The notes beneath the pieces are model-generated. The model was not told the origin of the DNA, made no database searches, and saw only the letters and a list, made by a program, of their open reading frames with translations. The translations under genes and the position numbers were made by a program. A DNA stretch of 23,967 nt from a virus, in IMG/VR virus record IMGVR_UViG_3300050821_002693, positions 1 to 23,967 of that record; one strand, 5' to 3'. This document shows positions 2,843 through 7,562 of the stretch, in pieces. Numbering within the stretch: the stretch's first letter is position 1; each line of letters starts with the position of its first letter.

Positions 2843-3270
2843 CGCAGCCAGTATACTTCAGCTTGGATGAAGTCTCCAAGAGCATCTGCCCCATAAGCGC
2901 CATTAGCGTACTCCACAGCTATGTCCAGCATGAGCTTTAGCTTTAGGGCATTAACTGCTGAGAAGGGTACAGGAACTACACCACCAGGGACGATAATCTC
3001 ATACTGGCCAGCAGCAGCAGCAAAGCTAGAAGTCAACTTACTAAGTGGCCGTACATCTATGGACGCTATCCCCCTAACTTGAGCAGGGGGTACAGCATTG
3101 GGGGCCGCTAGAGTGCCTCCCCCATTGGTGAAGTCAAGAGTATCTCCACCTGTAGGGTAATTTCCAGAGAGAACAAAGCGATAGAGGCACTTTATGAAAC
3201 GGTCCCCCCACGCCATAATGCTGGATTGGTCAAACGGGTTTCCATCTGCACCAAGTATTGTTACTGCCAT
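2839..3270 (-). CDS. Small structural protein (unknown family)
   Basis: A 143-residue protein starting MAVTILGADGNPFDQSS. The start at ATG 3270 is chosen because AGGAGG lies four bases upstream (AGGAGGCAATATG). The frame extends further upstream, but only through the palindromic motif and without an ATG preceded by a ribosome binding site. The sequence is rich in Ala, Gly and Val, has no visible export signal or catalytic motif, and ends VYWLR. It lies between the neck-like protein and the tail proteins, which suggests a minor head, decoration or tail-connector role. I do not recognise the family. Confidence 0.8.
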   Translation of the reverse strand: MAVTILGADGNPFDQSSIMAWGDRFIKCLYRFVLSGNYPTGGDTLDFTNGGGTLAAPNAVPPAQVRGIASIDVRPLSKLTSSFAAAAGQYEIIVPGGVVPVPFSAVNALKLKLMLDIAVEYANGAYGADALGDFIQAEVYWLR

Positions 3271-5679: not shown

Positions 5680-5692
5680 TGTAATGATTACA
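5680..5692. repeat. Palindromic junction motif, copy 3
   Basis: In the gene direction: CTGAAAG-TGTAATCATTACA-GTGGAC. The TAA inside the motif is the stop codon of the endonuclease gene (5688-5690), and the GTG start of the next gene follows directly. The centre is C in the gene direction, so no ATG is created. Confidence 0.95.
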
Positions 5693-5999
5693 CTTTCAGG
5701 TATTGCCGAATAGCCCCAAGAAGGTTGTCAGTTTCGATATAGCCCAACATTGCATTGCACCTCTGACAGATTAGCCCCCGGAGGCATTTGCCACAAGACT
5801 TACGTCCGGGACAACACTTGTGGTCGTGATCCACAGACAGACGGATGAGCATTGGAGGCTGCTTGCAGATAGCACAAACTCCACCTTGAGACTCCAACAT
5901 CTCATCATACTGTTCTAGCGTAATCTTGAAGTAAAACTTCAGCCTACCTTGCCTTCTAGCTCTGACAGACTTGGTTGTGTAGTATTGAGGATGTGACAT
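5688..5999 (-). CDS. Endonuclease VII-type HNH endonuclease (free-standing)
   Basis: A 103-residue protein from ATG 5999 (MSHPQYYTTKSVRARRQ). It carries the recombination endonuclease VII signature: a basic N-terminus, the helix LEQYDEMLESQGG, CAIC (Cys 42 and 45), SVDHDH (residues 55-60, the HNH catalytic core), then GLICQRCNAMLGY with Cys 78 and 81 completing the zinc site. Family members cut branched DNA or act as homing nucleases. It directly follows a group I intron, so it may mobilise that intron. An upstream ATG at 6026 would give 112 residues but lies inside a hairpin without a ribosome binding site. The start at 5999 has AGAGG nine bases upstream, held in the same hairpin. The stop is the TAA of a palindromic motif. 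Confidence 0.88.
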   Translation of the reverse strand: MSHPQYYTTKSVRARRQGRLKFYFKITLEQYDEMLESQGGVCAICKQPPMLIRLSVDHDHKCCPGRKSCGKCLRGLICQRCNAMLGYIETDNLLGAIRQYLKV

Positions 6000-6075
6000 G
6001 AATCTGGCCTCTACCCACAGTAGCATAGAGGCCAGAACATGTCAAGTACGTGATGAAGGAAGCTATAAGCTCCTT
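5956..6075 (-). CDS. Candidate 3' exon of the major capsid gene
   Basis: If the group I intron is spliced out after capsid codon ATT (6425-6423), the frame can resume at 6075. It then reads KELIASFITYLTCSGL and continues for 39 codons to TAG 5956-5958. The reading contains SFITYL, the same peptide as the second copy of the 19-base repeat within the intron 5' region. It overlaps the first 44 bases of the endonuclease gene in another frame. The exact splice sites are not determined: G6076, G6073 and G6070 would all keep the frame. Treat this as a hypothesis that explains why coding-like sequence lies between intron and endonuclease. Confidence 0.4.
   Translation of the reverse strand, partial: KELIASFITYLTCSGLYATVGRGQIHVTSSILHNQVCQS
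6004..6035 (-). promoter_or_regulatory. 10-bp hairpin covering the endonuclease ribosome binding site
   Basis: CTGGCCTCTA (6004-6013) and TAGAGGCCAG (6026-6035) are perfect complements with a 12-base loop. In the mRNA (minus strand) the 3' arm contains the AGAGG that would serve as Shine-Dalgarno for the ATG at 5999, so long transcripts should hide it. Nothing like a U-run follows, so a translational control hairpin fits better than a terminator. Confidence 0.75.
6046..6064 (-). repeat. 19-base direct repeat, 3' copy
   Basis: GTACGTGATGAAGGAAGCT on the plus strand, identical to 6372-6390. On the minus strand it can pair with the preceding GAAGGAGCT to form a hairpin. It lies just beyond the predicted 3' end of the group I intron, in the presumed 3' exon. 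Confidence 0.9.
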
Positions 6076-6422
6076 CTAGCGTCCGAAGTCAGATTGTTAC
6101 TCAGCCTTAAAAGACTGGGGTAAGTCATTTCTGCTCACCTCTGCACCTTCATATTCGGTGCAGCTCAGACTATCGCATCACCCTCTCGGGTGTTCTCTCG
6201 CTTAGTCGTTCAGGCTGCCTTTCGGCTTGCCCCTTGTTGGCTTCTCAGCGTTCAAGTCAATCAGAGAGAATTTATACCGGGCCACTCTCGAAACCCGGTA
6301 GGAATTCCATTGCCAGTTGAATAGCACCCCGCACGGAGGTTTTCACTGGCAAGGTTCCAGCCCCACCATAGGTACGTGATGAAGGAAGCTGCAAGCCCTC
6401 CATCATTACCATAGCATTAGTT
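6076..6422 (-). ncRNA. Group I intron in the capsid gene region (ORF-less); explains the 357-base gap before the endonuclease locus
   Basis: Read on the minus strand, the region shows the ordered core of a phage-type group I intron. P2: arms at 6345-6352 and 6310-6317 (8 bp). A further 6-bp hairpin is ACCGGG 6276-6281 with CCCGGT 6294-6299. P3: 6264-6270 with 6193-6199 (TTCTCTC/GAGAGAA). P7: the R element CTGAACGACTAAG (GACTA, 6203-6207) pairs with the S element GCGATAGTCTGA (TAGTC, 6168-6172). P8: 6179-6183 with 6188-6192. P9: 6141-6147 with 6157-6163, followed by a TGACTTACCCC stretch as in phage td-type introns. A possible P1 pairs exon CCATT (6427-6423) with GATGG (6404-6400), with a U-G pair at the splice site. 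The core is very likely. Both ends are provisional. No endonuclease is encoded inside. Confidence 0.85.
6372..6390 (-). repeat. 19-base direct repeat, 5' copy
   Basis: Identical to 6046-6064. It lies between the capsid stop codon and the P2 stem of the intron. Similarity continues weakly a few bases further upstream on the minus strand (GGnCTTnnAGCTTCC). In the capsid frame it reads AASFITY. See the findings on the capsid 3' end. Confidence 0.9.
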
Positions 6423-7562
6423 AATGGGGAACAAGGTCTGCCCGTTGACTTCATAGAAGTCCAAGGGTTGAATCTCAGCCCTGAACCAGTGTTCCAGCGG
6501 GAGTCCATCAATCCGCCCAGGTTGCGCGTGAATGTTGGCAAAGATGGGACGCCCACCAAAGGTCTTGGGAGGCATCTTCTTCAGCATGTCCTCAGATGCA
6601 TCACCCTTGAGCTGATTCTGGATGATGTTGGACACGATGAGGCCGATATTCTCGATAGCAGCCTCTTGGTCAACATTCATGTGCCACACAAACTTGGACG
6701 CATCGGGGGACTCAATACCCATTGCGGTGCGGACCAAATTGATGAGAGCACGGCCACGCTGAGGCGTGATGAAGGAGTTATTCCCAGCTATGAAGGGGGT
6801 AGACAAACGGCCAGGGTAAGCTGCCCGCTGAATACCGAGATAGTTCCCAACGCTGGAGCTAATCTGAAGAGTATTGACACCGTTCAGGGAAGAGGAAGCC
6901 ACAGAAGGGCCAACGCAACCATTGACTGATAGGAAGTTACCAGCAGCCATCCCCAACGGGAGAGGAGTGCTGGGATCAGCAGTCAAGGTATTAGCGAGGG
7001 CGTCCGCAGTGAGTACTTGGAAGATGCCCAGTAGGACACCAGCCGCAGTAAACACTTGGATAATCTGGTTATCAAAGAATTGATTGGCATTGTTGACAGT
7101 TACGACCTGCCCAGCCACGCTAACTACTGTGTCAAGGGTACCGGAACTGTCTCCGTAAGCCAAGATTGCTTCGATACCAGCATTAAACTGCTCCATCATG
7201 CGGGTCATTTGACGGGTGACGTAATTCTCAACCGCCTTCTCTTTATCATCAGTTGCAATCTCAGCCAGTGCGGTATACTCTACCGCAAAGTTGAAATAGA
7301 ACTGATTGATAAGCATGACTTCCGTTTTGAGGGCAGAGCCGCGTCCCAAGTTCCCGCCATCCGGGTTAAACTGGTTGATTGCTCCACCTGCGGTAATCTC
7401 AACCGGGGCACGATAGGCACGGGATGAGACTGTTTGAAGACCTTTGGCCTTCTTCTTAATCATGCCCAGTAGGGTCTTATCCAACTGGTAAAGAAGAGGG
7501 ACTTCAGGTCGAACTGCCTCAATCTGCAAGGCAATCGCGTTATTGTTTGTTCCTGGTGCCAC
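6417..7562 (-). CDS. Major capsid protein (unspliced reading, 381 aa; probably truncated by an intron)
   Basis: Starts at GTG 7562 with AAAGGA about seven bases upstream and the palindromic motif (7591-7603) before that. It follows the scaffold gene, the usual capsid position. The N-terminus, with RPEVPLLYQLDKTLLGMIKK, then KTEVMLINQFYFNFAVEYTAL, resembles the N-arm and E-loop of HK97-type capsid proteins of short-tailed phages. A long beta-rich insertion (VVSVAGQVVTVNNANQF, residues ~145-205) follows. The C-terminal part has ANIHAQPGRIDGLPLEHWFRAEIQP and ends GQTLFPIN. The TAA stop comes right after a likely 5' splice site, so the true C-terminus is probably encoded beyond the intron. The main product is expected to form the procapsid shell with the scaffold. 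Confidence 0.88.
   Translation of the reverse strand: MAPGTNNNAIALQIEAVRPEVPLLYQLDKTLLGMIKKKAKGLQTVSSRAYRAPVEITAGGAINQFNPDGGNLGRGSALKTEVMLINQFYFNFAVEYTALAEIATDDKEKAVENYVTRQMTRMMEQFNAGIEAILAYGDSSGTLDTVVSVAGQVVTVNNANQFFDNQIIQVFTAAGVLLGIFQVLTADALANTLTADPSTPLPLGMAAGNFLSVNGCVGPSVASSSLNGVNTLQISSSVGNYLGIQRAAYPGRLSTPFIAGNNSFITPQRGRALINLVRTAMGIESPDASKFVWHMNVDQEAAIENIGLIVSNIIQNQLKGDASEDMLKKMPPKTFGGRPIFANIHAQPGRIDGLPLEHWFRAEIQPLDFYEVNGQTLFPIN

Follow-up and report, generated by a model that had tools for sequence, protein, structure and literature searches.

The window analysed here, the whole 23,967-nucleotide stretch of viral DNA in IMG/VR record IMGVR_UViG_3300050821_002693, carries on its minus strand a predicted major capsid gene split near its 3′ end by a short intervening sequence and followed by a small endonuclease gene. 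Exon 1 of the capsid gene (6293–7562, minus strand) was delineated from its homologues, and its product matched PHROG 14242 (major head protein) in a profile comparison (E 5e-5). The window capsid is 96–98% identical to intact 424-residue proteins from other IMG/VR contigs, and a structure model of the homologue from locus L002 (mean pLDDT 63.8, moderate confidence) returned HK97-fold phage capsids as its top fold matches. By these sequence and model comparisons, the gene 5′ of the intron is predicted to encode a phage major capsid protein with an HK97 fold. Its frame in exon 1 is broken by a TAA codon at 6417–6419. Exon 2 (6076–6089, minus strand), which was placed by homologue comparison and a test of splice junctions, finishes a tyrosine codon and adds phenylalanine, glycine and arginine before the stop; intact capsid homologues end in FPIYGNDGGLAASFITYLWWGWNLASENLRAGVYSTGNGIPTGYFGH followed by a stop codon. 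No match to the capsid was found among annotated phage records. The carrier is a soil-type phage, for which an acidobacterial host is plausible because capsid homologues from cellular assemblies sit mostly in Acidobacteriota metagenome assemblies.

Between the exons lies a 203-nt group I intron (6292 to 6090, minus strand), supported by the effect of its excision, its fold and the existence of related introns. It is preceded by CCTACCGGGT (ending at 6293) and followed by ACTTCGGACGCTAG (6089–6076), and its boundaries were set by alignment to more than 80 intronless capsid homologues. A preliminary description of this DNA had recognized a group I intron in the capsid gene, as the junction, covariation and fold now support, and had extended it from 6422 to 6076. 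The 5′ boundary so assigned was wrong because the codons of exon 1 continue for about 125 nt past it, running beyond the apparent stop to 6293 and resuming at 6089; position 6076, taken as the lower boundary, is the end of exon 2, with its stop codon. A junction near 6422 was accordingly rejected, joining at this site yielding FPITSDA instead of the conserved C-terminus. Comparison of the C-terminus with those of intronless homologues, a check that had been proposed at the outset, showed that excision of 6292–6090 gives back the conserved end GIPTG/YFGR (the slash marking the junction) and its stop. Among all splice choices tested, this one fitted the homologues best (42 of 43 residues), with T as the last base of exon 1 and G as the last base of the intron; the predicted joined-exon sequence across 6293/6089 reads CCTACCGGGTACTTCGG. 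As expected of a group I intron, the insertion is precise and its removal restores the homologous frame locally, the upstream TAA being a separate defect. The C-terminus is uninterrupted in the more than 80 homologous capsid genes, and the core of the window intron was not seen at any of these loci.

On the minus strand, the intron RNA adopts a stable minimum-free-energy fold (z about −4.5 to −4.6) in which a P3–P9 core is organized around a P3/P7 pseudoknot. In P1, the exon side UACCGGGU (6293–6300) pairs with the internal guide sequence GCCCGGUA (6275–6282), the exon-terminal U forming a U-G wobble at the 5′ splice site; this wobble, together with the G that ends the intron, is in keeping with group I chemistry. 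P3 is formed by UUCUCUC (6264–6270) and GAGAGAA (6193–6199). P4 (6256–6253 with 6236–6233) encloses P5 (6249–6247 with 6242–6240), the two occupying 6233–6256, and is followed by P6 (6231–6229 with 6215–6213) and P6a (6226–6224 with 6219–6217) within 6213–6231. The R element TGAACGACTA supplies the 5′ strand of P7 (GACUA, 6203–6207) and the S element GATAGTC its 3′ strand (UAGUC, 6168–6172), so that the two elements pair with each other, in agreement with their earlier recognition from the sequence. The hairpins P8 (CACCC-GAGA-GGGUG, 6179–6192) and P9 (CUGCACC...GGUGCAG, 6141–6163), the latter taken from the fold, complete the structure. The preliminary description had listed P2, P3, P7, P8 and P9 in order; this held for P3, P7, P8 and P9, and P2 is absent, just 5 nt separating P1 from P3. 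Phage group I introns usually belong to subgroup IA, which is characterized by P7.1/P7.2 hairpins between P7 and P3. These hairpins are not present here, and the intron was not filed as IA because the 3 nt (AGC) between P7 and the 3′ strand of P3 leave no room for them.

The core was next compared with an alignment of 58 related introns. Over P3, P4, P6, P6a, P7 and P8, 99.1% of the cells in this alignment were paired, as against 38–50% in controls in which the partners had been slid, and 17 of 26 pairs had changed on both sides, a level of covariation matched by none of 500 shuffles. Changes on both sides affected all seven pairs of P3, all five of P8 and, with 100% pairing, four of the five counted pairs of P6/P6a; P4 was likewise 100% paired and mostly invariant. 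P5, which is present in the fold, was omitted from the pair count, the alignment being unsure in that part. P7 was paired in all 58 introns and carries no covariation evidence, its invariance arising from its inclusion in the search pattern. Covariation thus bears on P3, P4, P6 and P8, and chance origin of the fold, core and junction is excluded. As far as sequence can tell, the evidence that a group I intron interrupts the capsid gene is strong.

A match to Rfam model RF00028 is a usual aid to the identification of group I introns rather than one of their defining features. A search of the window against Rfam at gathering and lax thresholds returned chance hits only, and the intron was not found by RF00028. 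In 112 kb of sequence from 12 loci holding about 20 introns with the same core, this model recovered a single site. The missing match is a limit of the model, and the want of a covariance-model hit, which the preliminary description would have held against the intron, loses its force because RF00028 misses nearly all related introns.

The TAA codon belongs to a 9-nt in-frame insert, AACTAATGC (6414–6422, minus strand), which was delineated by homologue comparison and ends the open reading frame at FPIN. The capsid stop, earlier thought to fall four bases into the intron, therefore lies within exon 1. None of the homologous capsid genes read contains the insert, and a pattern containing it had no other match in viral_contigs, a set that may lack near-identical records. 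Over the 45 codons 3′ of the TAA, across the junction, the window has synonymous differences from L001 and L002 at 28–31 codons and non-synonymous ones at 1–2. These codons look conserved by selection, so little non-synonymous change implying translation that continues today or ceased only very recently. Reassignment of the stop was rejected, given that TAA, TAG and TGA each terminate genes within the window. Since the TAA breaks the frame even after splicing, this copy of the gene, as written, cannot give a full-length capsid; the portion lost comprises two strands predicted in the L002 homologue model (residues 390–403 and 410–413). As read from the sequence of window positions 6412–6430, the insert creates an inverted repeat with perfect 5-bp arms around a 2-nt loop (CATTA-AC-TAATG), such as a template-switch mutation might leave.

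In one rival reading there is no functional intron: the capsid gene merely ends at FPIN, and the structure downstream belongs to a 3′ untranslated region or folds by chance. It is true that the open reading frame stops there and that no Rfam match to the intron was found. This explanation is nevertheless very hard to sustain: the sequence past the stop retains the codons of the conserved C-terminus with almost exclusively synonymous differences, homologous capsids run some 35–45 residues beyond FPIN, and both the exact junction and the covarying core contradict it.

With the intron accepted as real, the insert itself can be read in three ways. The capsid copy may be dead or dying, through a genuine nonsense insertion in a defective phage or decaying provirus in which the intron is a passenger. 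That the insert is unique to this record and deletes the last predicted strands of the protein fits such decay; elsewhere in the capsid gene, its C-terminal codons included, no further damage is seen, and the adjoining structural genes are open, leaving this a substantial possibility of somewhat less than even probability. Much the same may be said of an artefact of assembly or sequencing, in which case the gene would in truth lack the insert, as the intronless homologues do, and its capsid would be normal once spliced: the insert is known from one record, with no second contig carrying it found in viral_contigs (within the same limits of that set), yet a clean 9-nt in-frame insertion is atypical of short-read errors. 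Finally, the stop might be functional, most ribosomes terminating at FPIN and a minority passing it by bypass or readthrough to give short and long capsid forms in a ratio set by the low rate of passage, with the stop also shielding the folding intron from ribosomes. The continued constraint on the codons past the stop and the perfect inverted repeat would suit this proposal. In contrast, the insert occurs in no homologue, the part lost looks like an integral piece of the capsid fold and not like an appended domain, and the matching take-off and landing codons that translational bypass would call for were not found beside the insert; both the two-form scheme and its shielding variant are therefore improbable. 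The TAA is most likely either a very recent nonsense insertion in a single genome or an assembly error; we assign these two similar probabilities and regard programmed bypass as unlikely. The presence of the intron does not depend on the insert.

Other features of the region were recorded. Across capsid codons 380–424, synonymous divergence from L001–L003 is about twofold higher, and the window shares its allele with the intronless locus L004. An old recombination event probably produced this tract; co-conversion with the intron was rejected as the source of the divergence, the allele of these last 45 codons not pointing to homing because L004 has it too. A 25-nt piece of exon 1 (6372–6396, minus strand) is duplicated, with 92% identity, 3′ of the exon 2 stop (6046–6070, minus strand); L004 is without the downstream copy. 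The palindrome TGTAATSATTACA occurs at 11 sites in the window (2787, 3288, 5680, 7591, 9009, 11380, 12203, 15776, 17641, 21164 and 22254), compared with about one predicted by shuffling; most of these sites lie where two genes meet or at a start codon, and the palindrome also stands ahead of the post-capsid gene in several of L001–L004. It is possibly an operator or another regulatory site used along the genome.

The intron contains no endonuclease reading frame, as had been noted, and the endonuclease said to stand alone just downstream proved to be a free-standing Endonuclease VII-type HNH gene for a protein of 112 residues (5688–6026, minus strand, with a later ATG at 5999). Its product matched PF02945 (Endonuclease_7; E 5.3e-18), PHROG 2914 (E 1e-24) and, in the PDB, T4 endonuclease VII (E 9e-5). 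Four of 67 relatives of this gene, at L235, L237, L238 and L248, adjoin capsid genes related to that of the window. At L237 and L238, introns with the same core lie near the 3′ end of the homologous capsid gene and are followed by the HNH relative; at L248, the relative (40% identity) lies within a sequence that interrupts a homologous capsid gene and in which group I R- and S-like elements were read by eye. From its gene position and the L248 arrangement, the HNH protein probably acts as a homing endonuclease on this region of the capsid gene.

Scanning viral DNA for a pattern made of the R and S elements retrieved at least 120 stretches and at least 131 distinct introns. The hosts of compact relatives were assigned at 74 loci by comparing the longer flanking exon with PHROGs and Pfam and then clustering the exons; each host was thus read from one exon, and the loci are not fully independent. 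Among the matches listed, major capsid genes were interrupted at 60 of the 74 loci, and these came from about six capsid families: 25 fell in a cluster matching PHROG 1357 (18 by direct match, the others through linkage), 19 in the P22 coat family and 13 in PHROG 9953, with one each for L114, L015 and the window. The other listed loci had ribonucleotide reductase, tape measure and portal genes as hosts. In 28 of 37 longer relatives, again among the matches listed, the downstream exon was related to the PHROG 1357 cluster. The preliminary remark that introns are uncommon in capsid genes does not apply to these listed compact and longer relatives. A second scan with a different group I motif (CAGAGACTA...GATATAGTC) served as a control for whether capsid enrichment is specific to this family; its listed matches also often fell in capsid genes, and the enrichment is therefore not special to the family of the window intron. 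Introns with this core number up to three per locus at L024, L036 and L110, and P22-type coat protein exons flank at least two of those at L110. Phage introns have been said to favor genes for DNA polymerase, ribonucleotide reductase and terminase (PMC3984707), a view that is older than most environmental genomes. Among the open-access papers searched, none was found to report capsid genes as the main hosts of phage group I introns.

Taken together, the locus very probably consists of a compact group I intron splitting a capsid tyrosine codon (IPTG-YFG), with the HNH gene as its probable homing partner and an independent TAA of most likely recent or artefactual origin. Once transcribed, the intron would fold and P1 present the U-G splice site; an external guanosine held at P7 would attack after U6293, and the freed exon would then attack after the terminal G6090, leaving joined exons that encode ...GIPTGYFGR. 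The intron and the HNH gene may spread together by collaborative homing.

Phage capsid genes serve as diversity markers. Group I introns split such genes unflagged by Rfam's model. Because introns sharing this core have, among the matches listed, mostly major capsid genes from several unrelated families as their hosts, annotations of capsid genes from the environment may in many cases show a truncated or split gene. Homing directed at capsid genes becomes amenable to testing through the association with HNH genes of the Endonuclease VII type.

Introns in capsid genes, small introns with separate endonuclease genes, and endonuclease genes near capsid genes (PMC10448857) have all been published before. 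A close precedent for the host gene is mycobacteriophage LittleE, in which a probable group I intron of the major capsid gene was likewise recognized through intronless homologues, is preceded by U and ends in G, and was supported by RT-PCR, which showed splicing, and by protein evidence (PMC3706429); that paper also cites a capsid-gene intron in phage Tuc2009. The LittleE intron differs in its length (819 bp, compared to 203 nt), in carrying its own endonuclease reading frame where the window has a separate HNH gene, and in residing in another capsid. In size and arrangement, the window intron resembles those of the Jug phages, whose many small introns (mean ~206 nt) are associated mostly with stand-alone endonuclease genes and whose splicing has metatranscriptome support (PMC12363816); the hosts highlighted there were terL, nrdD and DNA polymerase, whereas major capsid genes dominate among the matches listed here. 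The downstream gene shares its HNH domain with the T4 endonuclease VII family (PF02945) and, in this comparison of sequences, differs from T4 endonuclease VII in being a short free-standing gene adjoining an intron. As for the core itself, an unannotated group I intron of the same family lies at 3001–3211 of Caudoviricetes sp. ctn9Y15 (MW202674.1), between two annotated P22 coat coding sequences; it shares 77.8% identity with the window intron over half the query and, as here, interrupts a capsid gene, although the capsid family and insertion site differ.
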